Positions 2-17,161 of a stretch of 64,000 nt of DNA are shown here, in pieces (the first letter of the stretch is position 1; the number at the start of each line of letters is the position of its first letter). The translations under genes were made by a program, and so were the position numbers. This DNA comes from Hyphomicrobiales bacterium (lineage in GTDB: Bacteria > Pseudomonadota > Alphaproteobacteria > Rhizobiales > Rhizobiaceae). The stretch lies in the NCBI GenBank assembly GCA_900473915.1, contig UCNG01000006.1, forward strand, positions 62,001-126,000, read 5' to 3'. The notes under the pieces are model-generated. The model had not been told where the DNA came from and made no database searches. It saw only the letters and a list, made by a program, of their open reading frames with translations.

Positions 2-895
2 CTATTTAGCAGTCGCGATCTGGTCCTGGGGGGAAAAGGAGAACAGGCCGTCCGTTTCTGGATTGTTATTGAGCTTTACAATAGGAAGAACCCGGCCTGT
101 CTGTTCCAAGAAATCCTTCTGCACATATTGTGCACCAGCCAGCTGATCATTCATATAGAAGATGGCTTCGAGCGGCAGCTGGGTCGGGATATCCTGAGCC
201 CAAACGGCGACGACCGCTTCATTCCAGCTTTCCCAGTCATTTTCGAATGGATCTGGCAGTACAGTGCGCGCCTGAATGCTCAGATCGAAAGCATCCTTGT
301 CAACTCCCAGCGAACATTGTTGGTCGTCGCCGGTGATCGCGTAGTTGGCTTGCCAACCCGCAAGGGTCGTAATACCCAACTGCGCGCATGGTACGCTTTT
401 CGGATTGTTGCTTTTATGAATGCCGCACTTGTCCGGGCGTTCGCCTGAATGGCCATCAGTGGGATACACGCAACGCATTTCAAAGGGATGGTCTGCGGGT
501 GCTCCAAATTCCCGACTGACAAGCCCTACCGGAACGGCATATTTCGCGGCCTGATTTAGATCAATGCGCTGAAGGTCGCTCCGGAGATAGACAAACGAAA
601 CACCGTTGCGCTCAACGGCTTCCGGGCTGGGATTCCACGCATGGAAATCCGGGCCGTATCCGGTGAAGCGGAGGACAACGCCATTACACTTATAGGCGGC
701 TTGGCCATCGGGGCATGGCGTGGTGTTGAGATAGCGTGCATTGAGCCGTGTTGCAACGTCAGCACCAGTTTGTGCACTGGCAGGCAAACTCCAAGCGGCT
801 GCCAGAGCTGCGACGGCGCAAAATACCGAAACACCTCGACGCTGCTGAAAATTCCGCGAAATGAGTTTCATTAAATATCGAGAGAATATTTTCAT
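2..895 (-). CDS. Secreted halovibrin HvnA-like protein
   Basis: A 297-residue protein with an N-terminal export signal (basic start, hydrophobic stretch about residues 22-40, likely cut after PASA). The mature part recalls the halovibrin HvnA-like secreted proteins I know from Pseudomonas and Vibrio: 'ATRLNARYLNT' near the start, 'HAWNPSPEAV', 'GVSFVYLRSD', paired cysteines, 'AQDIPTQLPLEAIFYM' and 'DFLEQTGRVLPIVKL' near the end. The assignment is from memory of the family and was not searched. Halovibrin was first described as an ADP-ribosylating protein, but no catalytic motif is verifiable here. The start at 895 is preceded by AAGGA at good spacing. It stands alone, 490 bp downstream of the Ig-repeat gene on the same strand, with its own AT-rich upstream region. 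Confidence 0.6.
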   Translation of the reverse strand: MKIFSRYLMKLISRNFQQRRGVSVFCAVAALAAAWSLPASAQTGADVATRLNARYLNTTPCPDGQAAYKCNGVVLRFTGYGPDFHAWNPSPEAVERNGVSFVYLRSDLQRIDLNQAAKYAVPVGLVSREFGAPADHPFEMRCVYPTDGHSGERPDKCGIHKSNNPKSVPCAQLGITTLAGWQANYAITGDDQQCSLGVDKDAFDLSIQARTVLPDPFENDWESWNEAVVAVWAQDIPTQLPLEAIFYMNDQLAGAQYVQKDFLEQTGRVLPIVKLNNNPETDGLFSFSPQDQIATAK

Positions 896-1387: not shown

Positions 1388-3403
1388 TTAATCTATCATG
1401 TGTTCTGGGCGATCAGGATCATATGGGGCCTTGCCCCTCAGTCCGCGCACGTCACATATAATATCAGTCTGCGGCGACTTAGCGCTGCCATAATCATTTG
1501 TCGCTATATATGTCAAATGTCCCTTGGCCGTTTGGTACAGATAGAGGAGTCTCTCGGACGGTATTTCGAAGCGCACCCCCCCATTAGCGATGTCTTGATC
1601 AGTAACCCTTTTTGCTTCCACGCTCCCGTCCTGTGGAAATGCCGCCCTCTGAATCGCTGCACCCGAGCCACTAAACCCCCAATTTGCCGTGAAGGTGATC
1701 GATATGAGGTCATTGACCTTCATGTTAATATACTTAGGTACCGTGATCAGCGCTCCGGCCAGAGCAACAGGAGTATTAAGGATCTCGTCAGCAAATATCG
1801 GGTCAGGTAGCGGATCGTCTCCCCCAGGCAGATCTTTTGAACTTTGAACGGCAACGCTTTGCTTTGGCGAGTAGGCCGAGTTTGATAGACCTGGTGCTAC
1901 CTTGCGCGACGCAACGTATTGCGCATCAATTTTACCGCTGCCCGCTCTTTGAAGCACAGTTGCAGGCAAGGTGACAGTGATTTTTTCCTGCTTCGTAACG
2001 TCATTGTCTGTGATCGTATAGTCTTGAAATTTTTCGCCGTTATAGAAAAACTCCAGCACGTCGTCTTTCTTGAAGGCGTTGCCACTTGGCGTCGAAGCGG
2101 TAAACCATGGAACGATAAAACTCGCGTCTTTTCTCGATTCCTCCAGTGTAATGGTATTTTCCGGCTTGCCCGATGTCCAGCCATTCGCGTGGACAGTCGG
2201 CTTACCAAGCGCCTCATTTTCGGGCGTTAACGGGTCGGTATCACGCCCCCCTGGCTGGTCCAAATTGACCTCGACAACGGTTGGGTTCGCAGGCTGCCCA
2301 ATGAACTTTCCCGCGCGGTAGACACTATAGGTTACCGAGATAGTGCCCGTCCCTTCAGCTAAAACGGCAGGATACGGCACTGTGACTGTCATCATTGGCG
2401 TCTGTGTAGGATCGATGACGAGCACCGTAGGCATTTGTTGCGTGCCCCACGAGACAAGTATCGTATCGCCGACCAGAAGATCATCATTTCCCGGAATCTG
2501 AACGTCTACACCCAATCGTGCAATAGCTTCACCAATTATTTTTGGGGCCTGCTCGGAGGCAGGTACTGAGGGTGGCTCCAGCACAATCTGCGAGCTCTTA
2601 ATCATCAGGTCGAGCCAAGCGTCTTCCGACAATAAGGACGTATGTCCGGCAAGGTCCTCTATAACGTACCTGAATAACACCAGGCCATCGCCCACCGCTT
2701 CCAGGTTCGCTCGGCTGAAACTGACCTGCACCGGGGCATTCGTGTAGTTAAGTGGAATTCGCACAGGAGTAGCCTTTTCCGGCGTACCTCCAGCCCTTGC
2801 AACGATTTCAGCGCGAATTAAATCGCCAGCAGTCAAGTTCTTATAGCTTGGAACATTCGCCTTAAGCTCATCACCCAGACCAGTGAGCTGTGCGGACGTC
2901 AGCGTTCTGTCGTTCTCAACAGTCGAATCTGTGAAGGTTAACGCTCCCAAACCACTCCCGTCTGGTGGATTGCCTGCTGGAGTGTATTTAGTCTTGAAAA
3001 ACGCTGGGGCGCTGGGCGTCGGAACTTTATCAAATATACCCATAAGTGTATAGAAAACACTGTATTCCCTCTCTTCCTTTCGTTGATCTGGAGTTATTTC
3101 AACTGTAATAAATCCAAGATCATTTTCTGTCTTCTCAATATGTCTTCCTGGATCCTCAAAATCACCTACCCCATTTATAAAAAAGTTAAAGTAATCCCCA
3201 GTGGAAAAATTAGGATCAATAGCAACTCGTACGGAAATATTTTTATCCTTTACTCCATAATCGAGAATATATTGATCTTGGAATTCGTTTGGTACGCTTG
3301 CAAATACATCGCCGTCGATGCTCGGCGCTGGGAGTTCTTCGTCGGTGCCCGCTGCACCCACATGGTGTCTTACCCTGAAACGCTGGTAGTTATTCGGCTC
3401 CAT
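1388..3403 (-). CDS. Ig-like repeat protein, no RCC1 part
   Basis: A 671-residue protein made of about five immunoglobulin-like beta-sandwich modules of roughly 100-130 residues. Each opens with a Pro-rich strand (for example 'LEPPSVPASEQ') and later has 'GDTILVSWG' or 'KDDVLEFFYNG'. The start at 3403 (MEPNNYQRF) is chosen because AAAGGAGA sits about 7 bases before it; the open frame extends 37 codons upstream without a ribosome site. No signal peptide, membrane segment or cell-wall anchor is visible, so its location is unknown. It is divergent from the 1648-residue paralogue across 178 bp. Its modules are more diverged than those of the plus-strand paralogues, and the gene looks more AT-rich (not calculated). 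The function is unknown; such repeats are usually adhesive or structural. Confidence 0.75.
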   Translation of the reverse strand: MEPNNYQRFRVRHHVGAAGTDEELPAPSIDGDVFASVPNEFQDQYILDYGVKDKNISVRVAIDPNFSTGDYFNFFINGVGDFEDPGRHIEKTENDLGFITVEITPDQRKEEREYSVFYTLMGIFDKVPTPSAPAFFKTKYTPAGNPPDGSGLGALTFTDSTVENDRTLTSAQLTGLGDELKANVPSYKNLTAGDLIRAEIVARAGGTPEKATPVRIPLNYTNAPVQVSFSRANLEAVGDGLVLFRYVIEDLAGHTSLLSEDAWLDLMIKSSQIVLEPPSVPASEQAPKIIGEAIARLGVDVQIPGNDDLLVGDTILVSWGTQQMPTVLVIDPTQTPMMTVTVPYPAVLAEGTGTISVTYSVYRAGKFIGQPANPTVVEVNLDQPGGRDTDPLTPENEALGKPTVHANGWTSGKPENTITLEESRKDASFIVPWFTASTPSGNAFKKDDVLEFFYNGEKFQDYTITDNDVTKQEKITVTLPATVLQRAGSGKIDAQYVASRKVAPGLSNSAYSPKQSVAVQSSKDLPGGDDPLPDPIFADEILNTPVALAGALITVPKYINMKVNDLISITFTANWGFSGSGAAIQRAAFPQDGSVEAKRVTDQDIANGGVRFEIPSERLLYLYQTAKGHLTYIATNDYGSAKSPQTDIICDVRGLRGKAPYDPDRPEHMID

Positions 3404-3581
3404 AATTCGTCTCCTTTGAAACCGGTTTTCTGGAGTTTCGAATATGCAACCAGAAGATATGGATTGTAACGGCCAAAACTGACAGTTGTCGGCAGCCGGT
3501 CCGCATGGCTTCATAACGCTTACACACCTCTAAATGGGCGGCACCCTACTGGCCGCCATACACCCATGGAGACGTTCGTTC
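3404..3581. promoter_or_regulatory. Divergent promoter region of the Ig-repeat cluster
   Basis: A 178-bp gap between two Ig-repeat genes that point away from each other. It must carry both start regions. No clear -35/-10 pair or operator could be read with confidence. Confidence 0.4.
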
Positions 3582-6500
3582 ATGAAAACCAAAGATCCCT
3601 TGCTCTCATCACATGCCTCCGCAGGAGCCACGCTACCTGCGCCAAGTGTGCCACTGGCCGACGCCAACAAAGGTGGTTTCGGGCCTCAGATGACTCCCAA
3701 TCTGAAGAGCCGCGTGATCGTAGTGATTCCTCCGGATGCAAACACAGGAACTGGCGACACGTTTTTTCTCTACTGGGGCGATCCCGATCGCGCAGTAGAT
3801 ACATACACTGTGCCCTCGGGCAGTCCCACTTTCTCAATGAGTGTACCGCTACTCGACGTTGCGAGGAAAGGCGCCGGTTACGTCGAGGTCTGGTACGAGC
3901 GTAAATCGCCCGCAGCGGGAGAGGCTCCGATACCATCTTCTCGTACCACCGTCCTGGTGAAAACAACCATACCCGGCGGCACAGATCCCGATCCGGCCAA
4001 TACACCACTCGTGAACGAGAATCTTACTCTGCCATCAATCAGTCCGGAAGGGATCATCGACAGGAGCCGAGCCTTCAGCGGTGTTCAAGTCACCGTGAAC
4101 CCTTGGATTGATATGGCAGTTGGCGACCAGTTGACTGTGCAATGGGGCACCCACTCTATCGTCCGCAATGCTCTGGTATCCACCGACATAGGATCGCCGG
4201 TTACTGTCACCATCGACTCTGATACCATTCTACGTGAAGGCGATAACGACAAGTTGCCCGTTTATTATTTCATCGAGGATGTCGTGGGCCAGTGGTCATA
4301 CTACTCTCCTCAAGCCCATGTAGAGGTCGAAGCGAGCGCGGATGTATTTGAGGAACCGTTTATCGTCAACGCCAATGACGGCACACTTGATAGGGACGAG
4401 CTGGGCACCCGTGACGCCATTGTTGAAATTACTGTCAAGGATACAACAATTGCCGTAGGCGACAAGATTCATCTGATGTTCAATGGGCATACGGCGGATG
4501 GGTGGCCCGTAACCGAGGAAAGCGACGAAACGGTCAAAGTTCTCCGCTACACCCTCCCCATGAGAATCAGCAATGCGGTGCTTGCAAACGTCGCGCCAGG
4601 TAATGCCTCGTTGCGCTATGAGGTTATAGGCTCTGATAAGAAGTCCAAAGGGCTATCCTCGCGGACCTACGTGAAGATCACCGGCACAGCGGTCCAGTTA
4701 CCAGCTCCCAAGATCACCGAAGCGAAAGACGGCACGCTTGATCCGGCCATGACGGAGCTTGGCGCTCACGTAATGATCGAGGCTGCGCTGGCCTGGCGCG
4801 TCGGCGATAAAATTTCGTTGGTGTGGAACGGCACGATGGCCGACGACCGACCGGACTTTGTTATCCAAGAGCATGAAATCCAGTCTGGGGAGGAACGGGA
4901 ATCCCTGATCTTTACCATACCTTCCGAGAACGTCGAACGGATCGCCGGCGGTAAAGTCGATGTCTATTACCTGGTCAACCGGGATAATAACTCGCGGGAA
5001 TCAGACCACACCGCACTGACGATCATGAACATAAACCGACTTGCGCGACCAGAAGTGGAAGGTGTCGTAGATGGCCAGCTGTATTCGGGCTCGGTTCCCA
5101 ACGGCGCCAAGATCACCATACCCATATGGTCAAGTATGGCAATTGGCGACAAGGTCAACTGGACTTGGAAGGGCCAAGCTGCGGCAGGTAGTACACAAGG
5201 CTCGGAAACCTTGGCGAGTTCTGGCCAACTTGGCAAGCCTGTCGTCGTCAACGTTCCCAGCGTCGTCATCGAAGCTAACGCGGACAATGAAGACTATGTG
5301 ACTGTGAGGTACACGCTTACCCGCGCCAGCACAACCACCTTGGAATACTCCCAGACGACCAGCTTCAACGTCATCAAGTCATTGGAAGAAAAGCTGCCTG
5401 CTCCTTCGGTCGACGATGCCATCGGCGATATTCTCGACCCGACGACGCTGCCGGACACCGGCACGATAGTACGAGTCAAGCCCTACAACGGAAGACAGAT
5501 CGGCGACTGGGTCACTGTGTATTTCGGTCGCGGCACTGGTCATGGGGAAGTTTCCGACGAATTCAACCTGACCAAAAAGATGCTCGACGAGGACATCACC
5601 ATGCAGGTGCCAAAAGACAAAGTCAGGGCGCATCTGAACAGTCAAGTCGCCGTCGAATATATCGTTGACGAAGAGACCCGCAATATCAAGTCAGACGTTC
5701 TTGTTCTGAACGTACAAGAACAGGCAAAATGGCCTGCTCCAACTGTGGTCGAGGCGAACGGCCATTACTTTGACCCGGCCAAAATCCCATATGGTGCTAC
5801 GGTCCGCATTCCACAGAACGTGAATATGCAGTCCAAAGATGAAATCCACTTGCATTGGGGCTCGGAGAACGGCGATATTCCTCCCTACACGGATTCTACA
5901 CGTATAAATGATCCTCGCGATTATACTTTTCGCGTGCTATCCAACGAACTGGCGAAGTGGAACAATCGCGTTGTTCCAATTAGCTATACTATAGAACGGG
6001 GCACGGAACTTTTTCCGTCCTATACCTTTCTGTTGGGCATAGGTGTGACCGACCCAACTGATTTCCCTGCGCCTGTTATACTCGAGGCCATTGATGGCGT
6101 TCTGGACCTAGACCGGCTGACGACAGGCTCTGCCACAGCGGTGATACCAGCCGATGCCGACCTGTCAATGGGCGATGTTGTCATCTTAATTTGGGGAGGA
6201 GGAGTGGAGAATGGCGGCGCCTTCTGGAGGATCGAAATCACCGCAAATATGGTAGGCCAGCCGATCACACAACCCATTCTTATTGAGAACATTAGGAACT
6301 TTCTTGGCAGAACCGCGACTTTGTATTACGATGTAAATCCTGAATCTCTGGAGCGACGCCGATCCCGCACGCTTACCGTATCGGTTGAACAGAAGGGTGG
6401 GGCGCTACCGCCACCATCAATGCCCGACGTCAAAAATGGTATACTCGATCCACGTAGTATATCCGATAGCGGCACCACTGTTGTCGTTTCCCGTTCGCCC

Positions 6501-8528
6501 GGTATGCGCCAAGGCGATCCAATAAAGTTGCACTGGGATCCCTCCTCGTCGCCCCACCGGAATAATGAAGCGCTTGTCCCATCGTTGAACGACATCCACA
6601 TTGAGGTACCCCGCGAGTGGGTCAGCTCGATTGATGGAGAATCCGTGCAGGTTTGGTACGAATGGTATCGTGGCCCAGCCTTGCAGGGAACAAGTTCGCA
6701 TCTCAAGATCGACGTCAAGTTGTCGAAACTCCCGCTTCCGATTATCGACGAGGCTCGCAACGCGACATTGTATACCGGCGATGTAGACGACTTTGCCCAT
6801 GTCCGCATCCCGAACAGCGGGGAGTTCAGGAGCGAAGACAAGATCGAACTGCATTGGAGTGGAATATCCGACGAGGGTAGCGACAATTTCCCGCACACCA
6901 TTTCGCCTAACGAAGCCGACAAAGACATTGTCTTCGATGTGCCAAAGCGATTGGTAGATGCCAACAATGGGTATAGCGTGACGCTCGACTACACCGTCAC
7001 ACAGTTTAAGGGAGGCGCACAAGAAAATTCTGCGGCGGCTCGGTACGAAATTCGAACCGCAATTGGCAGCGGCGCGCTTCTCGTCATGGGCGCCCGTTCC
7101 CCAGGCGGTACGCACCGCGCCTCCGGTGGAGTGCAGTACATGCGCGCCCTGAACAAGGATAGCAAGCAAGATCTGATCGCCCAATGGCGTTATCAGGACG
7201 AGACAACCTGGACCATTGGCACTAGCTTCAAGGACACTCGCCCGTGGGTGCTGCTGCATGTGCGGTCAGAAACGGATGAGGTAGTGATCAATGCTGCAAA
7301 TATCTTCGGTTCAGGCGCGGACAGCCAGGTAGCCGGTGTTTCAGCATTAACTGCGATGTATCAGAGCGTTCCAAATGGCTTCTCTGTGATTAGCTGGGGG
7401 AATACCCTGTACGGCGGCAACACGGGCTCCACCATAATGACCAACGAGGATATTGTCGAAGTGAGCTCAACGCAAAGCGCTTTTTGTGCGCGGCGCAGCA
7501 ATGGCCTCGTATCCGTATGGGGAAATCCCTCGGAAGGCGGATTGATAACAGGTAGCATCAAAAATGTGCAACGCGTTTTCGGCAACGGTTCAGCATTCGC
7601 CGCAATCTGCGATTCAGGCACGGAGCAAACTTTGGCGGCATGGGGTGTTGGCGCTAGCGGCGGCTCCCTAACCGAGGAAGCAAAGAAACTTAAGGATGTG
7701 ATTAAAGTAGCAGCTTCAGGCAAGGCCTTTTGTGCGTTGCGCAGCAACAAAGCGGTAGTCGCTTGGGGGGACGTAGGCTCTAGCACGGTGCCCCAAGAAA
7801 TTGCGCAATCCAATAATATCCTCGACGTGCGCGGTAATTTTACGGCGTTTTGCGCACTGACGGAACATGGGCACGTGGTCGCATGGGGGGCAGTCACCGA
7901 CGGTGGCAAAGTACCGGATGAGATCGCAAGGCGCAACGACATTCTCGAGCTGGCCAGTGCCTCTGCGCGAGCCTTTGCCGTGCGAACGACTGGCCATGGA
8001 GTGTTGGCGTGGGGCAGTTCAAATCACGGTGGCACGATTCCCGACGGCATCAAGCGAGAGGAGTTTGACGACATTGAAGAAGTAACCGCCACATGGGGCG
8101 CGTTTTGCGCGCGACGTGCCACTGGTCATGTAATTACTTGGGGTGACAGCCAGCGCGGCGGAACTTTCCCCGACGAGCTGGCACTACAAAACAAAGATAT
8201 CGTGCAGGTCGTAGGCACATCATCAGCATTTGCCGCTCTGCGCAGCGACGGTTCCGTCATTGCATGGCCGAGCACGGTCCCAGCAGGCAACACCGCATCC
8301 GTGGCAAAAGAACTTGTCAACATCCGTGCTATATACGCCAACAGTGAAGTATTCGTTGCCGTGAAGAATAGTGGCGGCGTAGTAACCTGGGGTGTTACCG
8401 CTGGTGGCGGTATTCCCTCCGAAGACATCTCAACACTTCTCAATCAAAAACTGCACTATGAAGCTAAGACGAGTAATTTGTCTGAGACCACGAACCAAAA
8501 CAAGACGATCATAACCACCAACAACTAA
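3582..8528 (+). CDS. Giant Ig-like repeat protein with RCC1-like propeller
   Basis: A 1648-residue protein. Residues 1 to about 1160 hold ten Ig-like modules with the pattern 'LPAPSVDDAxxGxLDP ... GAxVxIPxxxxMxxGDxIxLxWxG'. A linker of about 90 residues follows ('LLVMGARSP', 'AQWRYQDETTWT', 'GTSFKDTRPWVLLHVR'). From about residue 1250 to 1600 come RCC1-like blades of 45-50 residues ('GHVVAWGAVTDGG', 'AFCALR'). The start at 3582 (MKTKDPLL) has GGAGA nine bases upstream; an open frame reaches back to 3534. The N-terminus is hydrophilic with no signal peptide, and there is no RTX or LPXTG-type end. The linker and propeller are clearly homologous to those of the 1059-residue neighbour, so the pair arose by duplication. 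I recall similar uncharacterised proteins in Pseudomonas. Role unknown. Confidence 0.8.
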   Translation: MKTKDPLLSSHASAGATLPAPSVPLADANKGGFGPQMTPNLKSRVIVVIPPDANTGTGDTFFLYWGDPDRAVDTYTVPSGSPTFSMSVPLLDVARKGAGYVEVWYERKSPAAGEAPIPSSRTTVLVKTTIPGGTDPDPANTPLVNENLTLPSISPEGIIDRSRAFSGVQVTVNPWIDMAVGDQLTVQWGTHSIVRNALVSTDIGSPVTVTIDSDTILREGDNDKLPVYYFIEDVVGQWSYYSPQAHVEVEASADVFEEPFIVNANDGTLDRDELGTRDAIVEITVKDTTIAVGDKIHLMFNGHTADGWPVTEESDETVKVLRYTLPMRISNAVLANVAPGNASLRYEVIGSDKKSKGLSSRTYVKITGTAVQLPAPKITEAKDGTLDPAMTELGAHVMIEAALAWRVGDKISLVWNGTMADDRPDFVIQEHEIQSGEERESLIFTIPSENVERIAGGKVDVYYLVNRDNNSRESDHTALTIMNINRLARPEVEGVVDGQLYSGSVPNGAKITIPIWSSMAIGDKVNWTWKGQAAAGSTQGSETLASSGQLGKPVVVNVPSVVIEANADNEDYVTVRYTLTRASTTTLEYSQTTSFNVIKSLEEKLPAPSVDDAIGDILDPTTLPDTGTIVRVKPYNGRQIGDWVTVYFGRGTGHGEVSDEFNLTKKMLDEDITMQVPKDKVRAHLNSQVAVEYIVDEETRNIKSDVLVLNVQEQAKWPAPTVVEANGHYFDPAKIPYGATVRIPQNVNMQSKDEIHLHWGSENGDIPPYTDSTRINDPRDYTFRVLSNELAKWNNRVVPISYTIERGTELFPSYTFLLGIGVTDPTDFPAPVILEAIDGVLDLDRLTTGSATAVIPADADLSMGDVVILIWGGGVENGGAFWRIEITANMVGQPITQPILIENIRNFLGRTATLYYDVNPESLERRRSRTLTVSVEQKGGALPPPSMPDVKNGILDPRSISDSGTTVVVSRSPGMRQGDPIKLHWDPSSSPHRNNEALVPSLNDIHIEVPREWVSSIDGESVQVWYEWYRGPALQGTSSHLKIDVKLSKLPLPIIDEARNATLYTGDVDDFAHVRIPNSGEFRSEDKIELHWSGISDEGSDNFPHTISPNEADKDIVFDVPKRLVDANNGYSVTLDYTVTQFKGGAQENSAAARYEIRTAIGSGALLVMGARSPGGTHRASGGVQYMRALNKDSKQDLIAQWRYQDETTWTIGTSFKDTRPWVLLHVRSETDEVVINAANIFGSGADSQVAGVSALTAMYQSVPNGFSVISWGNTLYGGNTGSTIMTNEDIVEVSSTQSAFCARRSNGLVSVWGNPSEGGLITGSIKNVQRVFGNGSAFAAICDSGTEQTLAAWGVGASGGSLTEEAKKLKDVIKVAASGKAFCALRSNKAVVAWGDVGSSTVPQEIAQSNNILDVRGNFTAFCALTEHGHVVAWGAVTDGGKVPDEIARRNDILELASASARAFAVRTTGHGVLAWGSSNHGGTIPDGIKREEFDDIEEVTATWGAFCARRATGHVITWGDSQRGGTFPDELALQNKDIVQVVGTSSAFAALRSDGSVIAWPSTVPAGNTASVAKELVNIRAIYANSEVFVAVKNSGGVVTWGVTAGGGIPSEDISTLLNQKLHYEAKTSNLSETTNQNKTIITTNN

Positions 8529-8541
8529 GACAGAATTGCTA

Positions 8542-8579
8542 GAGTGGCTCCTGTTTCAACGGGATGGTCGGAGCCACTC
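8542..8579 (+). terminator. Hairpin after the giant Ig/RCC1 gene
   Basis: A perfect 10-bp inverted repeat (GAGTGGCTCC / GGAGCCACTC) with an 18-base loop, starting 14 bp after the stop codon at 8528. There is no strong T-run, so termination is likely but not certain. Confidence 0.6.
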
Positions 8580-8652
8580 CATTCCACTGATTTAATGCAT
8601 TTTCGAACGCAAAACCGTTTCACAATTTTGCTGATACTTTCAGGAGACCATT

Positions 8653-11600
8653 ATGGTTCAACGAAATGAAACCCTGCTGCTGTCTCGCAGCCGTCCATTC
8701 AAGTCCCGCGCATCCCTGAAAACTGCAACACTCTCCCTGCCGGCTCCCGTGTGCACCGACGCTGACGCTGGAGCCCTCAATCCTGAAGCCCTGCCGTCGA
8801 GCGGCGCAAGCTTTGTTGTCGCTACCTACGAAGGCGTCGCAATGGGCGATTTTGTCGAATTCCACTTCGACTTAGATGGACCCGGCGAGTTCAAAGACTG
8901 GTTTTCCGTTTCCAAGAACACCACCGACCAAAGCTACACTTTTAAGGTGCCAAAAGCGAACATCGAGAGGGCGCTCGGCACTACGGTATCGGTCGGCTAC
9001 AATGTAGCCCCCATAGATAGCAGCGACACTTTCGACTCCGCACCTCTTTCCTTGTTCATCGGAACGCCGCCCCAACTAACCGCACCCAGCGTCGATGAAG
9101 CTTCTGACCACCATCTGGATGTTGAATTTACCCAGACCGGGGTCCACGTCAGAATCCCTGTCTATGACGGCATGGCCCCTGGCGACATGATCTATATGTA
9201 TTGGGGTAACGCCGCTGAGGCAGGCTTTTACGATGATGAAATCAAGGTCCGCATTCCGCGCGAGATCACTTTCCTTGTGCCCGCAGAATACGTCGCTGCC
9301 TATCTCGATCAAAGCGTCAACGTACGCTATGATGTCCAACGCGACGATGGCGTTCACACCTCCCTTGTGCTTCGCCTGCGCGTCGGCAATGCCGTGGACG
9401 ACACCAAGCCGCTAGCGCCAGAACTCAAGGAGGCCATCGGCGGCATTCTCAATCCTGATCTCGTGCCGAACGGCGCTACCGCCCTCGTGGGCCCCAACAA
9501 CAGCCTCCGTAATGGAGATAGAGTCAGGCTCACCTGGGGAAACGGTCTACCTGATGGAGCCGTCTGGTATTTCGACATTACCAAAAATTACGAGACCGCC
9601 CCCTACTCGCAACATATTCCTTACGAAAAAATCTTACCGTTCATCGACAGCACTGCTACTCTCTTCTACGAGATCGAGCAGGACGACGGTTCATGGCAGA
9701 TATCGAACACTCTAACCGTCAAAGTAGAACAGGATATTGCTAAAGTCGAGCCACCTTCAGTACCCCAGGCCGTCAACGGATGGCTCGATCCTCGCGACGT
9801 TTCGCCCGAGGTGGGGCTTTTCGTAATCGTGCCAACCAATCCGCACACCCGCCAAGGCGACGCCCTGAGCTTGACTTGGGCATCTGAGAACTCCGCCGGC
9901 AGCTGGGATAGTCTGCAATACCCTACGACTGACGAGCTTGCGAACCCGTTCTCCTTCAAAGTTCCTTTCAATACGCTCGTGGCTGGCCTTGAATCCACCG
10001 TCACCGTCTCCTATGACATCGTGCGCGGCAACAAGGCCTATGCCTCCGGCTCACCGATCAAATTGGTTATCCGTCAGGGAAACCTGCAGGCCCCAAGCAT
10101 TGATCAGGCCGACAAAGACCGCCTAAACCCCGCCGACTGCCCTGCCGGTGCAACCGTGCGCCTGGACGCCACCTCCGGCAAGTTTCGCGAGGGCGACGAG
10201 ATTAAGCTATTCTGGAACGGCGCCGTTGGTAATGGCTCTATCGCCATGCGCCATACCGTCGCCCCAGAGGAGGTCGGCGGTGACATTCTAGTGATCGTGC
10301 CACTTGATACTGTGAAGGCCAATGCTAACCAGCGCTCCTCTGTCGACTATCACGTTAGCCGCGCCAGCGGCACGCCCGAGGAAGAGTCGCCATGCGCCAT
10401 TTTTGATGTCGTTGATGAGCCGGGGCAGGGCCTACTGCAGGTGATGGGCGCGCGCAGCACAAATCATAGCTTTCGTGGCGAACGCCAGCCGGACCGTCTG
10501 TACGCATTCAACAAAGCGACACTTGATCCGGTGGAAGCCCAATGGGGCTACGAAGACGATGACATATGGACGCTGGGCGTTTCGTTCAAGGATACGCGCC
10601 CCTGGGCGCCCCTCCGGGTGCGCACGCTGAACGATTCCATAACGATCAATCCGGCTAATATTACCGGTTCGGGATCTGTTTCGGCCACACAGGGCGCCGC
10701 GTTTGTCGCTCATCTCAATGATGGCCGAGTCATCAGCTGGGGGCACCCCGCATGGGGCGCTTCGGAGTCATCAACCATCACCACGATTGACGACGTGCTG
10801 GAAGTGAGCGCCACGGAAGGTGCCTTTGCGATACGGCGGAGCAATGGACGCATTGCTGCATGGGGCCACAACGAGTATGGTGGCGTTATACCTCCCACTC
10901 CAGCGAACAACATAAAAGATGCCGCAAGAATCGTCGGTGGCGGTGCGGCATTCGCCGTCTTGCATACCAGCGGCAAGGTTACGGTTTGGGGAGATACGAG
11001 TAGAGGAGGAACTTTGCCTCAGGATATCGCAGACCTAACCGACATAGAAGAAGTCTTTCATGCAGGGAGTGCATTTGCTGCCTTGCGGAAATCAGGAGAG
11101 GTCGTGGCATGGGGCAGCGCTAGCTTGGGTGGAAAGCTACCGACGACGATTGAGAGCTTTAGTGACATTGTAGACGTGCGCGGGAACTCTAACGGCTTTT
11201 GTGCCTTACGCGATAATGGAACTGTGGTGGCATGGGGAGACGCGGACAAGGGCGGCGAGGTTCCTCAGGAAATTGCGCAACGTAACGACATCATAGAACT
11301 TGCAGCGGCCGGAAATTCTGCCTTTGCAGTACGCACCAAAACCAAAGAAGTCTTGGTCTGGGGCGATCCCGATGCGGGTGGAACGGTGGATTCCGACATC
11401 GCCGGTTTTACCGACATCGAAGCGGTAACGGCTTCCGGAGCCGCCTTCGCAGCACTGCGCAGCAATGGCCATGTGATCGCGTGGGGTGACGCCGAAAAAG
11501 GCGGCAGTGTTCCGACCGTCATCGCTGCGTACAACGACATTGTTCAGATTACAAGTACCGATCATGCCTTTGCAGCATTGCGCAAGACCGGTGATGTCGT

Positions 11601-11832
11601 GGTGTGGGGGAACCCGGATTTCGGTGCCGACACGTCGTCCGTTACCGCACGGCTCCAGAATGTGCGCGCGATCTATGGAAATGCGGACGCTTTCACCGCT
11701 GTCCTTGCCGATGGCGATGTTGTGACCTGGGGGCTGCCGGCTAACGGCGGCAGCAGCGATTCAGCCGCGAAGTATCTCAAGAGCGATGTGACCTATCAAG
11801 CCACCGCGGCTGTACGCGGACGTGCAATGTAG
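8653..11832 (+). CDS. Ig-like repeat protein with RCC1-like propeller
   Basis: A 1059-residue paralogue of the preceding gene with half as many Ig modules. Five modules span about residues 28-590 ('LPAPVCTDADAGALNP', 'LTAPSVDEASDHHLD', 'VEPPSVPQAVNGWLDP', 'LQAPSIDQADKDRLNP'). They are followed by the same linker ('LLQVMGARSTNHS', 'GVSFKDTRPWAPLRVR', 'NPANITGSGS') and about eight RCC1-like blades ('GHVIAWGDAEKGGSVP'). AGGAGA precedes the ATG at good spacing. There is no signal peptide and the N-terminus is basic (MVQRNETLLLSRSRPFKSR). The high similarity of the C-terminal halves, with differing Ig copy number, points to tandem duplication followed by loss or gain of modules. Function and export route are unknown; a surface or contact-dependent role is speculation. 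Confidence 0.8.
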   Translation: MVQRNETLLLSRSRPFKSRASLKTATLSLPAPVCTDADAGALNPEALPSSGASFVVATYEGVAMGDFVEFHFDLDGPGEFKDWFSVSKNTTDQSYTFKVPKANIERALGTTVSVGYNVAPIDSSDTFDSAPLSLFIGTPPQLTAPSVDEASDHHLDVEFTQTGVHVRIPVYDGMAPGDMIYMYWGNAAEAGFYDDEIKVRIPREITFLVPAEYVAAYLDQSVNVRYDVQRDDGVHTSLVLRLRVGNAVDDTKPLAPELKEAIGGILNPDLVPNGATALVGPNNSLRNGDRVRLTWGNGLPDGAVWYFDITKNYETAPYSQHIPYEKILPFIDSTATLFYEIEQDDGSWQISNTLTVKVEQDIAKVEPPSVPQAVNGWLDPRDVSPEVGLFVIVPTNPHTRQGDALSLTWASENSAGSWDSLQYPTTDELANPFSFKVPFNTLVAGLESTVTVSYDIVRGNKAYASGSPIKLVIRQGNLQAPSIDQADKDRLNPADCPAGATVRLDATSGKFREGDEIKLFWNGAVGNGSIAMRHTVAPEEVGGDILVIVPLDTVKANANQRSSVDYHVSRASGTPEEESPCAIFDVVDEPGQGLLQVMGARSTNHSFRGERQPDRLYAFNKATLDPVEAQWGYEDDDIWTLGVSFKDTRPWAPLRVRTLNDSITINPANITGSGSVSATQGAAFVAHLNDGRVISWGHPAWGASESSTITTIDDVLEVSATEGAFAIRRSNGRIAAWGHNEYGGVIPPTPANNIKDAARIVGGGAAFAVLHTSGKVTVWGDTSRGGTLPQDIADLTDIEEVFHAGSAFAALRKSGEVVAWGSASLGGKLPTTIESFSDIVDVRGNSNGFCALRDNGTVVAWGDADKGGEVPQEIAQRNDIIELAAAGNSAFAVRTKTKEVLVWGDPDAGGTVDSDIAGFTDIEAVTASGAAFAALRSNGHVIAWGDAEKGGSVPTVIAAYNDIVQITSTDHAFAALRKTGDVVVWGNPDFGADTSSVTARLQNVRAIYGNADAFTAVLADGDVVTWGLPANGGSSDSAAKYLKSDVTYQATAAVRGRAM

Positions 11833-11856
11833 GCGGCATAAGCAACGATAATTTAG

Positions 11857-11876
11857 AACGGGCGGCATCGCCCGTT
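11857..11876 (+). terminator. Hairpin after the second Ig/RCC1 gene
   Basis: A perfect 8-bp stem (AACGGGCG / CGCCCGTT) with a GCAT loop, 25 bp after the stop codon. No T-run follows. Confidence 0.55.
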
Positions 11877-11934
11877 ACCGGGGCTGCGGACTGCCTTGCC
11901 CCATACACGCGCCCTATTAAACCGGAGCAGCCCG

Positions 11935-13095
11935 ATGTATCTGAACAAAAATGCAAGCAATGAAAGTGTTAACAATTCACTCCTGACGCAACCTTCGGTT
12001 AAGGAAGCCCCCGACGGCATACTGGACCCAGAGGCAGATTACGCAACGGTCATTATCCCGGACTACTCGGGCAAGGCCGTAGAAGACGAGATCTGGTTTT
12101 ACTGGGATGCTGAAGTTGCAGACGGGTCAACATCGGACGAAACCTTAGTCAGTGAAATGACCAAGAATCGCCCTATTCCCTTCAATGTCAAAGCCAAGTA
12201 CATCAAGATCAACAAGGGAACTGTGGTCAAAGTGCGCTATATGGTAAAGCGTAATGGCACTGAATACCATTCCGAAGTTTTACCTCTCACAATCGCGCAG
12301 GAAGTTCCGGAAACCTATAACTTGCAGCCGCCCACCATCGAAGCTGCAATCAATGGTGTACTCAATCTAGAAACTGTGCCCGAGGAAGGGGCCAAGGCGA
12401 CGGTTCCCGCCTATGATCAGATGGCCCTTTATGATTCTGTATACATTCAACTCAACGATGGACAATGGGAAAAAGGCCAGCAACTCACTACCCCGGAGCA
12501 AATTGGTGTTTCGGTCGATTTCATCATCCCACGGGAAGAGTTGATGAAAGATTCCGGCAAAACCATACGCCTGTTTAGCCGCGTGATCCGTGCCGGGAAC
12601 CCGGTCGACTCTGAGGATGAATATATTTGGGTCTTGCAACCTGTTGGCGATCTGCCGCCGGTCAGTGTCCCACAGGCTCGAAACAACGCCCTGGACCCCA
12701 AGAATGTGCTGGGAAACTCCGTCGAAGTGATTGTCAAACAATATCAGGGCATGGCGGAAGAGGACGTAATTGAATTTACATGGCAGAATAAGGATGATGT
12801 GACAGAACCGTATCGAGATAAACGAACGGTTGATCCGAAGCTTCAGAACGAGCATTTCTGGGTTCCTCGCGCGCAGGCAGACCAGAATATCAACGGCACG
12901 GCCGAGTTGTCCTACACCGTTACGCGGGGCAGTGCCCCGTCCAAGGCATCAGAACTGCTGAGCCTATGGATCGGCGACGATTTCGCTGCTCCTGCGGAGC
13001 TGGATTTGACTGGGCTTGGATATATCATTGCTGAGCCACTGCCCCCATGGTGCCTTCAGAGTATTGTTTCACGCGTGAAGCCCGCTTCGGCCTGA
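11935..13095 (+). CDS. Ig-like repeat protein, 5' part of a frameshifted gene
   Basis: The intact reading frame gives 386 residues from ATG 11935 (MYLNKNASNES), with GGAG a few bases upstream. It contains three Ig-like modules ('TQPSVKEAPDGILDPE', 'LQPPTIEAAINGVLNL', 'LPPVSVPQARNNALDP') of the same family as the two genes before it. At the C run 13042-13046 the frame leaves the homologous sequence and ends in an out-of-frame tail (WCLQSIVSRVKPASA). The continuation lies in the -1 frame from 13047. One extra C in that run would rejoin the two parts into a protein of about 534 residues. The break may be a true mutation, a reversible slippage event or a sequencing error. Confidence 0.75.
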   Translation: MYLNKNASNESVNNSLLTQPSVKEAPDGILDPEADYATVIIPDYSGKAVEDEIWFYWDAEVADGSTSDETLVSEMTKNRPIPFNVKAKYIKINKGTVVKVRYMVKRNGTEYHSEVLPLTIAQEVPETYNLQPPTIEAAINGVLNLETVPEEGAKATVPAYDQMALYDSVYIQLNDGQWEKGQQLTTPEQIGVSVDFIIPREELMKDSGKTIRLFSRVIRAGNPVDSEDEYIWVLQPVGDLPPVSVPQARNNALDPKNVLGNSVEVIVKQYQGMAEEDVIEFTWQNKDDVTEPYRDKRTVDPKLQNEHFWVPRAQADQNINGTAELSYTVTRGSAPSKASELLSLWIGDDFAAPAELDLTGLGYIIAEPLPPWCLQSIVSRVKPASA

Positions 13096-13538
13096 AACCC
13101 TATACTTATAAGAGCGACAACACGGAAATTGCTACTGTCGACAACAATGGCAAAGTGACGGTTATTAGCAATGGGCTCGTGAATATCTCCGCCACTGACA
13201 GTAACCTTATGACGTTATCTTACAGTCTCACCGTAAGCGGCGTACGACAACTATTCTTTGTAAACGCATCTAGCAGTTATTCAGGCGCACAGGATGCCTG
13301 CGCTTCAATGAACTTACGCAGCGTCATGCCCTCAGAAATGCAGCAATTCTGGGAATTGTACCGTAAGAGCGTCACTGTTCCCATCACAGATTACCTGGAC
13401 TGGTTACCCTATTTATTCTGGACCGGAGAGGAATCGGGTGCCGGCACAGCTCTTGCCTATGATTTAAATGGCTCCTCAATTAATACCACTGGACGTAGTA
13501 AAGATGATTACTTGCAGGTGGCGGGCATCACACCGTGA
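13047..13538 (+). pseudogene. 3' part of the frameshifted Ig gene: BIG2 and lectin-like domain
   Basis: Downstream fragment in the -1 frame relative to the 11935 gene. The first 60 residues look like a BIG2 (bacterial Ig-like group 2) domain: 'YTYKSDNTEIATVDNNGKVTVI', then 'SATDSN'. The remaining 100 residues ('SYSGAQDACASMNLRSVMP', 'LFWTGEESGAG', 'YDLNGSS') resemble the C-terminal C-type-lectin-like domain found at the end of some intimin/invasin-type and other Ig-repeat proteins. This is judged by eye. There is no ribosome site before the ATG at 13047, so independent translation is unlikely. It probably forms the natural C-terminus of the upstream gene. Confidence 0.6.
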
Positions 13539-13542
13539 ATCG

Positions 13543-13561
13543 CGGCGGCTAAACGCCGCCG
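13543..13561 (+). terminator. Hairpin at the end of the Ig-repeat cluster
   Basis: A perfect 7-bp stem (CGGCGGC / GCCGCCG) with a 5-base loop, 5 bp beyond the stop at 13538. It suggests that 13538 is the natural end of the frameshifted gene. The T-run is poor. Confidence 0.5.
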
Positions 13562-13581
13562 TCGGTTGCTGTTCTCAATAC

Positions 13582-14002
13582 GGCTCTGTTGCAAAAATTC
13601 CGATTGGCTGTGAAGAGGTCTTCCCAGGCCTCGGTCCCGCGGTTTTGGCGCCGAGATTCTGCTCAAGCATTGCCACACCTCGGTGAGCGCGCTCGGCCCG
13701 ATGCCGAAGGCTCGTTCAACGATGCACCCATTGTCCGTGGACCTTTACATAGGTCTCGTCAACGCGCCAGCTGGTTGACTGCAGCTGGCGCCAGTTCCAG
13801 CGCAACCGCTTTTCAATCTCCGGCGCGAACCTTTGAAGCCGGCAGTAGATCGTCGAATGATCAACAGGCACACCCCGCGCGCCATCATTTACTCAAGGTC
13901 GCGGCAGCTGATCCCATAGCGGCCACTTGAAATCGCTCATTAAAAGTCTCGCTGAAAATCACCAGCGCTATTTCCAATATCAAAGCGATTGTTGCAACAG
14001 CC
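13582..14002 (-). mobile_element. Decayed IS6-family insertion sequence
   Basis: The left end 13582-13599 reads GGCTCTGTTGCAAAAATT, an IS6-family terminal inverted repeat. A weaker copy of its complement (TTGCAACAGCC) ends near 14002. On the minus strand, pieces of an IS6 transposase can be read: 'RYGISCRDLE', a stop, 'VPVDHSTIYCRLQRFAPEIEKR' (shortened here from the full match), then 'STSWRVDETYVKVHGQWV'. The DDE core after the first Asp region is missing and at least one nonsense codon and one deletion are present. At about 420 bp it is half the usual 800 bp, so it is dead. No matching 8-bp target duplication is seen. Confidence 0.75.
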
Positions 14003-14076
14003 AGAATATCTAACATATTGGTCGACGGCGTTTTGGGAGTTTATTAGAGTAGATTCTCCACAATGAGATTCCGCGG

Positions 14077-15168
14077 GTGACGATTATGAGTAATGAAAAT
14101 AATGATCGACAGCGCAGAGATGTGGAGATACCCGTCGTCTCCTATACCGGATCTTATGCCTGGCAGACGAATTTCTACGATACCGAACTGGATTTGCGTG
14201 ATTGGCTCGCGGCTATTGTAGATGGATCAGATGATGCAATCATCAGCAAGGACCTGCAGGGGAATATCAAGACCTGGAATCGGGGAGCCCAGCGTTTGTT
14301 CGGCTACGATCCCGAGGAGGTTCTAGGAAAACCCATCACCATTCTTATTCCGGAAGATCGTCTCAATGAGGAGCCAGCCATACTGGCGCAAATTCGAGAT
14401 GGAATGCGTGTCGAACATTTCGAAACTGTCCGCAAGAAGAAGGATGGCACGCATCTGGATATTTCTCTAACAATCTCTCCGATCCGCAACGCTCAAGGCG
14501 TGATCGTTGGCGCCTCCAAAATAGCCCGCGACATTACCGAGCGCCGCAAAGCGCAGGAAAAATTGTTTCTATTATTGGGCGAAATGCACCATCGCGTTAA
14601 AAACCTGTTTGCACTGGCAAACGGGATCGTATCGCTGAGTGGGCGGGATGCGAAAAATGTCGATGAATTTCGCCAAAGCGTCCAGTCCAGACTGTCTTCG
14701 CTGGCAAGAGCGCACGAATTGACGATGCCTGCCTGGGATGAAAATCCCGATATGTCAGCCGCTATTCCCATCCAGACCCTTATACATACAATCCTTGATC
14801 CATATCAGGGCTGTAATATCAGCCTTGCGGGAGCCAACCCGTCTGTTTCCGGGAAGTCGCTGACAAATCTGTCTCTCCTGTTGCACGAATTTGCAACGAA
14901 CGCGGCCAAACATGGAGCGCTTTCGTCAACGACAGGACGCCTCGACATTTTTGTCGAGGAGACGAGCGGAATGGTCAGATTATCGTGGACTGAAAGCGTC
15001 GGGGGGAAAGCCGGGCAGATAAGCACGGAAGGATTTGGAACGCGTCTGGAAGCCGGTCTTTCATCTGCCCTGAACGCCACAGTTTATCGGAACTGGCTGC
15101 CAACCGGGTTGGAAATCAAAGTATCGATCCCAATTTGCATACTGTTATCGGACACGGAAGAAAAATAG
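14077..15168 (+). CDS. PAS-domain sensor histidine kinase, HWE family
   Basis: A 363-residue soluble kinase. A PAS domain covers about residues 40-155 ('IVDGSDDAIISKDLQGNIKT', 'PIRNAQGVIVG', 'ITERRKAQEK'). The HWE/HisKA_2 phosphoacceptor motif 'GEMHHRVKNLFAL' puts the phosphorylated His at about residue 172, and the ATP-binding part has the N-box 'LLHEFATNAAKHGAL' and 'GFGTRLEAGL'. There are no membrane segments, so it should sense a cytoplasmic signal. Kinases of this family feed the PhyR-NepR-EcfG general stress pathway in alphaproteobacteria, and this gene opens a stretch rich in EcfG-type promoters, which suggests that role. The GTG at 14077 gives the longest form; ATG at 14086 is equally possible, and neither has a strong ribosome site. 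Confidence 0.85.
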   Translation: MTIMSNENNDRQRRDVEIPVVSYTGSYAWQTNFYDTELDLRDWLAAIVDGSDDAIISKDLQGNIKTWNRGAQRLFGYDPEEVLGKPITILIPEDRLNEEPAILAQIRDGMRVEHFETVRKKKDGTHLDISLTISPIRNAQGVIVGASKIARDITERRKAQEKLFLLLGEMHHRVKNLFALANGIVSLSGRDAKNVDEFRQSVQSRLSSLARAHELTMPAWDENPDMSAAIPIQTLIHTILDPYQGCNISLAGANPSVSGKSLTNLSLLLHEFATNAAKHGALSSTTGRLDIFVEETSGMVRLSWTESVGGKAGQISTEGFGTRLEAGLSSALNATVYRNWLPTGLEIKVSIPICILLSDTEEK

Positions 15169-15475
15169 AGCCGGAGCCGCCAACACGGCCAGCTCCATTC
15201 TTGGCTTCCGTCCCGCGCTTGTCCATGCCAGCAGCAACGCCTTCAACCTTCTGATCGAAAGACATGACGGACCGGCGGGCGGTCAGGTTTCGGATAGGCA
15301 CCAGATGCACATTCAAACATGGACGGAACCATTCGAACCATTGTTTCGTTGATCTCCTTTCTCCGGCATCTATATGAATGGTGGGTCGGTTTCATCAGAA
15401 CCCGAGTTGCCTCAGGAAGTTCGACCATGGGGAACCATCAAGTTTGCCGGAGACACGCCGCGACGGGAGACGACC
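15169..15475. other. Intergenic region with EcfG-type promoter
   Basis: About 300 bp after the kinase gene. It carries the predicted stress promoter at 15325-15350 and nothing else that is convincing. Confidence 0.5.
15325..15350 (+). promoter_or_regulatory. EcfG-type stress promoter
   Basis: GGAAC at 15325-15329, 17 bases, then CGTT at 15347-15350, matching the known EcfG consensus (GGAAC, 16-17 bp, CGTT). It lies about 125 bp before the start of the 66-residue gene at 15476. Confidence 0.7.
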
Positions 15476-15676
15476 ATGGTAGAAAACGGGTACAAACTTC
15501 AGCAAAACGGCGATGGCACATGGTCTGTGATAGACGCTTTCAAAGGCCACCCCATCACGTTCGAGGGCCGCTTGCAGATCGCCCTGCACGAGGAGGAGGC
15601 AAAGCGCGTTTTCGATTGCCTTAACCGCCAGAATCTTGAACGCCACCCGGAACACGGAAGCGGTCGGGTGCCATGA
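15476..15676 (+). CDS. Small hypothetical protein, 66 aa
   Basis: A 66-residue hydrophilic protein (MVENGYKLQQNGDGTWSV...). The start at 15476 is chosen for the GGGAGA just upstream; the open frame extends back to 15374 without a ribosome site. No family is recognised with confidence. It is the first gene after a predicted EcfG promoter and is followed 91 bp later by another small gene on the same strand, so it is probably a stress-induced product. Confidence 0.6.
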   Translation: MVENGYKLQQNGDGTWSVIDAFKGHPITFEGRLQIALHEEEAKRVFDCLNRQNLERHPEHGSGRVP

Positions 15677-15767
15677 GCCGAAGCAATATCGAAATATGAA
15701 GTGATCAAGAACGCCTATCTTAAATAATTGAGAAGCGTATTGTTGAGGTATCCCGAAGGAGGATCGC

Positions 15768-16055
15768 ATGCCGCTCTTCAACGAAGCGAGCCGTATCTAC
15801 AAGCCGGAAGAAGTGACCTTCATGCGCAGCTGTTTTTCCCACGCCGCAATTATTCTTGAAGAAAGCGACAGGGAGTATGCTGCCACGGATCTTTCGACGG
15901 CAATCATAATGCTTTACCAGAACGGCCTGAGGGATCTGAACTACATTGCCGAACTGGCGTCCCGGCTTGCCCACAAAAGATATCGGGACCGCCATCTGGA
16001 GGCACCCGTCGCCGCTAACCTGAACATCGTGCCGAACTCAGAACCCTCTCCCTGA
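15768..16055 (+). CDS. Small hypothetical protein, 95 aa
   Basis: A 95-residue soluble protein that reads as mostly alpha-helical ('PEEVTFMRSCFSHAAIILEE', 'DLSTAIIMLYQNGLRDLNYI'), with a less ordered tail. AAGGAGGA precedes the ATG at ideal spacing, which makes the gene credible. No known domain is recognised. It may be cotranscribed with the 66-residue gene from the EcfG-type promoter at 15325. It is convergent with the small-protein operon on the minus strand, only 11 bp away. Confidence 0.6.
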   Translation: MPLFNEASRIYKPEEVTFMRSCFSHAAIILEESDREYAATDLSTAIIMLYQNGLRDLNYIAELASRLAHKRYRDRHLEAPVAANLNIVPNSEPSP

Positions 16056-16066
16056 TGTCGGTCGCC

Positions 16067-16321
16067 TCAAGCATTCTGCTCTGCGTTCACAAATTTGTTA
16101 AAGCGGCTGTCGCCTGCATCTTCATAGAGGAAGGCAAGTTTTCGGTCGTCGAATATGGCAAAGAAATCGCCCCATTCAATCTCTTCCAGATTTTCGTCTT
16201 TCTCCGCGAAGTCAATGCGTAATATGCCGCTTTGGTTGCCTGTATCCACGATGGCCGGGCGCCCGTTGCGGTCTTCCGCCCATCGGCGGATCTTGTCGTG
16301 ATCTCGCGTGATCTGAGCCAT
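16067..16321 (-). CDS. Conserved small protein of rhizobial type, 84 aa
   Basis: An 84-residue acidic protein ('DHDKIRRWAEDRNGRPAIVD', 'GILRIDF', 'LEEIEWGDFFAIFDDRKLAF'). Its pattern matches a small conserved family in rhizobia that is often mislabelled as 1,4-alpha-glucan branching enzyme because of a short local resemblance; it is far too short for that enzyme. It is the last gene of a four-gene minus-strand unit starting at 17140 and lies 5 bp after the stop of the 54-residue gene. The unit has an EcfG-type promoter, so the protein is probably stress-induced. Biochemical role unknown. Confidence 0.7.
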   Translation of the reverse strand: MAQITRDHDKIRRWAEDRNGRPAIVDTGNQSGILRIDFAEKDENLEEIEWGDFFAIFDDRKLAFLYEDAGDSRFNKFVNAEQNA

Positions 16322-16326
16322 TGTTC

Positions 16327-16491
16327 CTATCCTTCCGCTTTAAACTTCTTCGCTTCTTCAAGCAGCTTTTGCCTGTCCCTGCCAAAACGTTCGATCAACT
16401 GGCGTGCCTGCAACGGGGAAATATCCGAATTCTCCGCGAGAAACTTTACGTCTTCATCGTCCGTAAGCGGGGTGGTTGGTTGCTCGTTCAT
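16327..16491 (-). CDS. DUF3606-like small protein, 54 aa
   Basis: A 54-residue protein, too short for most gene callers: it begins MNEQPTTPLTDDEDVKFL and continues with 'SDISPLQARQLIERFG'. This resembles DUF3606 proteins, which are short and built round a helix-turn-helix-like 'LAxxxgvSxxxlrxLiexvG' core. Its ATG overlaps the TGA of the upstream membrane-protein gene (ATGA at 16488-16491), and GGAGG sits upstream, so translation is probably coupled. It is third in the stress-promoted unit. The overlaps at its start and the tight spacing at its end are the main support that it is real. Confidence 0.65.
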   Translation of the reverse strand: MNEQPTTPLTDDEDVKFLAENSDISPLQARQLIERFGRDRQKLLEEAKKFKAEG

Positions 16492-16787
16492 GATCGGCCT
16501 CCATTCTGACCTTCTGACGGATTGGCTGGCTGGTCGCCTCCCGTACCCGTCTGCGGCCGCTGGTTTTCAAGCGGCGGATTTTGTCCCGGCTGTTCGCCGG
16601 AATCCGTCGCCGGCGGCGTCTGTATGCCCTGCTGCTGCTGCGATACCAATCCGCCTCCGGTCAGGCTCCATCCAAGGAATAAAAGCAGCAGAACCGCCAA
16701 TATGACCAAGGCGAAGCGGGGGAAGTATCCAAGCGTTCGCGAAGGCTGGACCCTTTTGTCTTGCTCAGGTTTCGATTGCATATTCAT
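16488..16787 (-). CDS. Small single-pass membrane protein, 99 aa
   Basis: A basic cytoplasmic start (MNMQSKPEQDKRVQPSRT) is followed by one membrane segment (about residues 24-45, 'FALVILAVLLLLFLGWSL') and a Gln/Pro/Gly-rich tail that should face the periplasm. The start at 16787 overlaps the stop of the upstream gene (ATGA), implying coupled translation; an open frame reaches to 16844. It belongs to the unit 17140-16067. No family is recognised. Confidence 0.65.
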   Translation of the reverse strand: MNMQSKPEQDKRVQPSRTLGYFPRFALVILAVLLLLFLGWSLTGGGLVSQQQQGIQTPPATDSGEQPGQNPPLENQRPQTGTGGDQPANPSEGQNGGRS

Positions 16788-17140: not shown

Positions 17141-17161
17141 CGCTTTGGACCTCCAGGGTCC

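Follow-up and report, generated by a model that had tools for sequence, protein, structure and literature searches.

How do long Ig-repeat proteins act when none of them carries a recognizable export signal? The question arises from four adjacent genes, g1 to g4, near the start of a 64,000-nucleotide stretch (the window) of contig UCNG01000006.1 from a Hyphomicrobiales bacterium. All four encode rods of Ig-like modules; g2 and g3 continue into a linker and an RCC1-like propeller (together, the core), and g4 runs into a second frame, g5, that encodes a lectin-like tip. A halovibrin-like gene lies alongside (Table 1). The first-pass annotation had singled out this cluster as the window's best candidate for an undescribed system. 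Rather than being specific to the window, it proved to be a recurrent locus across Pseudomonas, Pandoraea, and Enterobacterales, and in many relatives from Pseudomonas and Pandoraea a g1-type gene is paired with an autotransporter, a widespread and apparently undescribed pair. The window looks to hold a transferred, possibly reduced copy of this wider modular locus, and our preferred reading, of moderate confidence, is that horizontal transfer brought in a modular locus for interactions at the surface or outside the cell.

The g1–autotransporter pair

The autotransporter linked to g1-type genes is a pertactin-like protein of ~750–870 amino acids with PF03212 and PF03797 domains. We searched 149 Pseudomonas genomes (one genome per species) with profiles of both proteins and listed 150 matches for each; the profiles were seeded with the loci themselves, and the queries took no account of co-location. 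Among the listed g1 matches, 145 of 150 lay within 5 kb of a listed autotransporter match (0.5 expected), and 105 of the listed pairs had both genes on the same strand. The listed matches cover 78 of the 87 g1-positive genomes and place the pair in at least 74 of the 149. Five listed g1 matches had no partner: two are near the start of one contig of genome G359 and three are in genomes without a listed autotransporter. In the reverse direction, 87 of the 106 listed autotransporter matches scoring at least 700 had a listed g1 match within 5 kb, and G451 and G402, among the other 19, have a weaker g1. Around the loci that we read individually, an autotransporter stood near 13 of 18 (G404 omitted) against 1.1 expected, with a P value (6e-13) that is only a guide because loci within one genus are not independent.

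Phylogenetic analysis indicated that these autotransporters form a separate clade. A first tree placed 23 of 26 locus barrels in one clade together with only 5 of 40 other barrels of the same genome set, which we had picked from the listed matches. As predicted beforehand, a g1-type gene was found beside all five of the supposedly unlinked barrels in the clade, compared with none of two sister-clade barrels and none of seven controls, one of which was outside the tree. A second prediction made beforehand concerned previously unread Pandoraea flanks, where an autotransporter was present in 3 of 3, two of the linked clade in each. In an enlarged tree, 33 of 36 linked barrels grouped in one clade (support 100/93) that contained 0 of 35 other barrels and 0 of 9 barrels from the Rhizobiales relative G008. 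For this tree, we moved five barrels from the other to the linked set once their flanks had been read and left out L117, a duplicate of L089; the tree program cautioned that long branches meet within the other set. The linked barrels outside the clade are two from a Yersinia plasmid and one from genome G453. The literature library that we searched gave no description of the pair or of Ig–linker–propeller proteins. One subgroup of Pseudomonas g1 proteins, exemplified by L124 (3863–5812), has a recurring C-terminal motif, MPSGExC...C, that contains two cysteines.

The wider locus and its distribution

Relatives were collected with a spaced DNA pattern of the linker, which gave 58 genome loci; the 37 with a tblastn E value of at most 1e-3 to a window protein were retained and 21 were dropped. 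These 37 loci represent 33 genomes, mostly of Pseudomonas, Pandoraea, and Enterobacterales, with one from Rhizobiales. The same pattern gave six viral-contig loci, one of them (L004) a true relative, and scans with peptide patterns yielded no relative. When 41 stretches (the window, the Yersinia plasmid, and 39 genome stretches) were clustered, halovibrin-like genes recurred in 18 and an autotransporter in 8; other neighbour clusters included one of mixed, unrelated ABC ATPases, mostly of importer types, and one with a LysR member. We then read 19 loci from further Pseudomonas and Pandoraea genomes, our choice of about 27 listed and not picked by the DNA pattern; the remainder may hold fewer partners. 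Tip genes were present in 14, halovibrin genes in 12, an autotransporter in 13, g1 in 12, and all four in 9; the core profile missed the core gene in G404. One common order, clearest in Pandoraea and variable in Pseudomonas, is autotransporter(s), g1, divergent core gene(s), tip, and halovibrin gene(s). The window and G008 share g1, g2, g3, and g4 in this order, with no autotransporter seen in the available sequence.

Profile searches detected the core in 14 of the 149 Pseudomonas genomes and in 13 of the 32 from Pandoraea; of 297 genomes in the order to which G008 belongs, G008 itself was the one match. Genomes already known to carry the core are included in these counts. A phage search gave no match to the cluster, E. 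coli genomes gave no match to one enteric core, and Xenorhabdus carries a distant core. Among plasmids, 22 records match g3; the Yersinia frederiksenii plasmid does so over most of g3 and the others listed mainly over the propeller, and it is the only one of these records that also matches g1. On this plasmid (L001, 9472–18193), an Ig protein, an Ig–linker–propeller protein, and an autotransporter of another clade lie on the same strand.

In a tree of 34 cores, which omits the g3-type core of L022, the g2 core of the window and the Rhizobiales core form a pair (100/100), and both group with a Pandoraea horticolens core (99/93) inside a Pandoraea group. For the g3 core, the partner is a different Pandoraea horticolens core (97/96). 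This nesting among Pandoraea fits transfer from a Pandoraea-like donor, with the direction being our inference. The guanine-plus-cytosine content of 51–58% over 1–14 kb of the window, compared with 52–62% beyond, lends weak support as a sign of transfer. The window's closest relatives make a Rhizobiales recipient likely.

Several loci in Enterobacterales have other surroundings. In L100 (Pseudescherichia vulneris, 7381–19507), a propeller core lies near a PapD-type chaperone, a fimbrial adhesin, and an SpvB/TcdB-type gene. In L086 (5603–13187) and L094 (3679–13863), a core lies near an inverse autotransporter and small signal-less Ig proteins, with Big_1 in L086. In three of seven Enterobacterales genomes (G003, G011, and G025), an inverse autotransporter lies no more than about 12 kb from a core, a weak association because G025 has 11 such genes.

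Domain structure of the window cluster

Table 1 Features of the cluster and of the window's autotransporter.
Feature	Position	Strand	Description
Halovibrin-like gene	2–895	-	Signal peptide-like N-terminus, single Hvn domain
g1	1388–3514	-	708 amino acids; 5 Ig-like modules, no signal peptide
g2	3534–8528	+	1664 amino acids; 10 Ig-like modules 3633–7013, linker 7032–7445, propeller repeats 7374–8429
g3	8653–11832	+	1059 amino acids; 5 Ig-like modules 8737–10371, linker 10390–10788, propeller repeats 10675–11763
g4	11896–13095	+	3 Ig-like modules; 5' piece of frame-split gene
g5	13047–13538	+	Big_2 + C-type-lectin-like tip; second piece of the frame-split gene begun by g4
Probable IS6-family insertion-sequence remnant	13582–13975	.	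Adjoins split tip gene
Classical autotransporter	34002–38885	-	1627 amino acids; PF03797 + PATR repeats + AC_1

A profile grown from a single g2 module detected 23 modules, with some in each of g1 to g4, which bears out the shared Ig module family of the first-pass annotation; the weakest (independent E value 2.7e-4) sits in g1. Tandem Repeats Finder detected no DNA-level repeats behind the modules, whose repetition is confined to the protein level. Tried singly, 0 of 21 modules matched a Pfam Ig family, so that the label Ig-like rests on the predicted fold: modelled modules match Ig and FnIII domains as well as those of SiiE, invasin, and intimin in structure comparisons.

The description of g2 and g3 as genes with a conserved linker and RCC1-like repeats also held. 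Both pass the cut-off of 22 bits for RCC1_2 (PF13540), with 52.2 bits for g2 and 95.7 bits for g3, and both miss the 150-bit cut-off of the RCC1-like domain WD40_RLD (PF25390; 50.2 and 101.2 bits). The linker, MGAR...W.Y...N..N, was confirmed and is conserved among relatives. Models of the core yielded a propeller fold whose nearest match is BLIP-II; the structure matches cover mainly residues 169–568 of the model. Models thus gave both the Ig and the propeller fold that had been expected. Sequence searches of the PDB gave nothing useful for g3 alone, the Ig profile, the g1 profile, or halovibrin. RTX repeats, reported as lacking, had no Pfam or NCBIfam match on the cluster proteins. As a test for phage or defence genes, PADLOC matched none of six proteins, and PHROG matches were confined to the Big_2 part of g5. 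Judging from the N-termini of relatives, g1 probably starts internally near 3403 (Met38), and g2 likely does so near 3582. Residues 32–704 of g1 share 53% identity with the protein of G008.

The first-pass annotation had drawn four adjacent Ig genes. The shared module and the open reading frames are as described, except that 11896–13538 comprises two overlapping frames and not one open gene; the equivalent sequence in the nearest relative (L022/L068) is a single open frame. A tip gene of Pandoraea sp. PE-S2T-3 (L070, 1884–3122) seemingly lies in two frames too and is open in the related G031. g5 matches Big_2 with 33.6 bits and intimin profiles far below their cut-offs, and a profile of the tip family matches intimin 1e5u (E 3.4e-10). 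An intact relative of the tip was modelled, and its structure matches support an intimin/invasin-like Big_2 and lectin-like tip. Pfam gave no IAT_beta match for either piece of the window gene or for its intact relative (L068, 540–2162), and neither g4 nor the homologue in L068 showed a signal peptide. Next to the split gene, the inverted-repeat-like sequence GGCTCTGTTGCAAA, which we take to be an IS6-type inverted repeat motif, occurs exactly at 13582; alone it is weak evidence, because the window contains 11 loose matches against 6.7 expected. Positions 13922–13975 share 90.7% identity with an Agrobacterium IS6 transposase gene.

The halovibrin-like neighbour, which had been taken to hint at a host- or competitor-interaction locus, is a real link, as the gene belongs to the same recurrent neighbourhood in relatives. 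Its product shares 33% identity over 85% with annotated HvnA/HvnB of Serratia plasmids and 62% identity over 254 residues with the second Hvn domain of a two-domain protein of Pandoraea horticolens. Relatives often have two Hvn domains in tandem; the window copy has one. A Pseudomonas koreensis locus (L075, 5583–12046) contains four two-domain halovibrin-like genes in tandem. One study (PMC3510237) ascribes NAD+-glycohydrolase activity to Vibrio fischeri halovibrin and places DUF2599 at the C-terminus of P. aeruginosa HvnA.

Export of the rods and comparison with known systems

The lack of signal peptides on the window's rods was upheld, and signal peptides are rare on the rods of relatives. 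As a crude measure, distinct from SignalP, we scored a hydrophobic h-region (Kyte–Doolittle (KD) value of at least 2.0 within the first 70 residues) in open reading frames, some of which were clipped by the ends of stretches. It was present in 4 of 66 core, 1 of 28 g1, and 4 of 39 tip frames, whereas most halovibrin frames (33 of 48) and autotransporter frames (19 of 25) had one. On inspection, only one of the nine rod frames with an h-region had a convincing signal peptide, the tip gene of G453 (L126, 16822–17835, minus strand); the other eight look like the first Ig module or its lead-in. Two of 48 Hvn frames (L076 and L110, Pseudomonas) encode a signal peptide, two Hvn domains, and 3–4 modules of the cluster's Ig family. 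These fusions and the G453 tip gene argue that Ig modules are exported in at least some cases. No known exported family turned up for the N-termini. With regard to the barrel that had been reported as lacking, no IAT_beta domain lies on the chains, and a separate barrel protein, not seen here, stands in the neighbourhood of many relatives. The survey of neighbourhoods thus provided a partner gene and no secretion set: among the recurrent neighbours, not all clusters of which were annotated and from which open reading frames under 80–90 amino acids were excluded, no type I or type VI secretion, injection, lysis, or immunity family was recognized.

In relatives, such genes often have a dedicated outer-membrane protein and a secreted one as neighbours, which points to an undescribed surface system. 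In such a system, the rods would act extracellularly as binding proteins, with the propeller face and the lectin tip binding targets. They would leave the cytoplasm without a cleavable signal, through lysis, vesicles, or a new route. The outer-membrane autotransporter may hold the rods or help them, and the halovibrin-like protein would be a secreted enzyme, probably an NAD glycohydrolase. It is tempting to speculate that the autotransporter clade takes g1 and the propeller- or lectin-tipped rods as cargo or display partners. Signal-less proteins would then be exported by a separate autotransporter, or mounted on it at the surface, in a type V arrangement of several partners; we consider this specific version improbable. 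A hint in its favour, from a single locus, is that the one tip gene with a convincing signal peptide occurs in G453, where g1 and the cognate autotransporter are lacking.

Several observations weigh against a surface role built around the autotransporter. No cognate autotransporter was seen in the window, which ends 1.4 kb beyond g1, or on the 31-kb contig of G008. The window's only autotransporter scores 89, compared with 418–503 for six cognates, and in G008 none of the nine tested (of 10 counted) belongs to the linked clade. The core stands alone in 4 of the 19 loci, and free-standing cores of ~464–491 amino acids without Ig modules occur, one of which, a 466-residue protein of Enterobacter hormaechei (L092, 9417–10817), is encoded with pyruvate dehydrogenase genes on one side and an aconitase gene on the other; the core therefore does not need the rest of the locus. 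G453 has core, tip, and halovibrin genes without g1, and its autotransporter is outside the linked clade. No exporter was recognized beside the genes among the recurrent neighbours. Finally, a crude composition classifier with a noisy training set gave mixed results, with 76% of cores, 55% of tips, and 17% of g1 proteins looking extracytoplasmic.

Some of these points suit proteins that stay inside the cell, where g1 would be a cytoplasmic chaperone-like or regulatory partner of the autotransporter and the propellers would work on partners in the cytoplasm, much like eukaryotic RCC1 proteins. The rarity of signal peptides, the cytoplasmic-looking composition of g1, and the free-standing cores agree with such a role, and strict pairing with an autotransporter would suit a biogenesis partner. 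We nevertheless regard an intracellular role as unlikely, since long Ig rods and an intimin/invasin-like tip are extracellular designs, the nearest propeller, BLIP-II, is a secreted protein, and the Hvn–Ig fusions and one tip gene do have signal peptides. The scarcity of signal peptides would also suit large effectors, either injected by a contractile or another machine or set free when the cell undergoes programmed lysis; their tip and propeller would then bind targets on a host or competitor. Legionella has injected effectors of the RCC1 type, release by programmed lysis has been proposed for Tc-type proteins, and both the L100 locus, with its pilus and SpvB/TcdB-type genes, and the distant core of Xenorhabdus are in keeping with effectors. 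Yet rods of 10 Ig modules are unusual for effectors, the recurrent neighbours that were annotated, from 80–90 amino acids upwards, showed no recognizable family of injection, lysis, or immunity proteins, and the PAAR match in g2 is far below its cut-off (E 0.021; 14.9 versus 124 bits), which makes this explanation doubtful.

The remaining alternative concerns the window copy rather than the locus. The set looks reduced because the tip is split, a probable IS6 remnant adjoins it, the halovibrin has one Hvn domain, and the cognate autotransporter was not seen, and the same features would be expected if the cluster were decayed passenger DNA, the non-functional remnant of a transferred island. 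However, g1, g2, and g3 are open and retain 53–64% identity over aligned parts to the Rhizobiales relative in the same order, and the split could be a sequencing error; we assign decay only a small probability. Acquisition of a surface or extracellular interaction locus is thus the explanation that we prefer. Should the rods reach the surface, they must do so by a new route of export or display; should they stay inside, these autotransporters have an unrecognized cytoplasmic partner.

Components of the locus resemble known systems in part. Like the C-terminal ectodomain of the inverse autotransporters intimin and invasin, the tip combines Big_2 with a lectin-like domain; unlike theirs, it is encoded by a separate gene, has no IAT_beta barrel on the chain, and has a signal peptide in only one judged case. 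In contrast to BLIP-II and RCC1 propellers, those of the window are joined by a specific linker to 5–10 Ig modules, lack a signal peptide, and fall below the WD40_RLD cut-off. The halovibrin-like gene shares a signal peptide-like start and Hvn similarity with P. aeruginosa HvnA (PA1914) and Vibrio fischeri HvnA/B; the C-terminal DUF2599 is described for the P. aeruginosa protein, and the window gene is instead linked to Ig and propeller genes. The partner autotransporter of relatives has the PF03797 and PF03212 domains of type Va autotransporters of the pertactin/BafA kind, and differs in forming its own clade, one whose members stay paired with an Ig gene that lacks a signal. We know of no type V subtype with such a fixed pairing.

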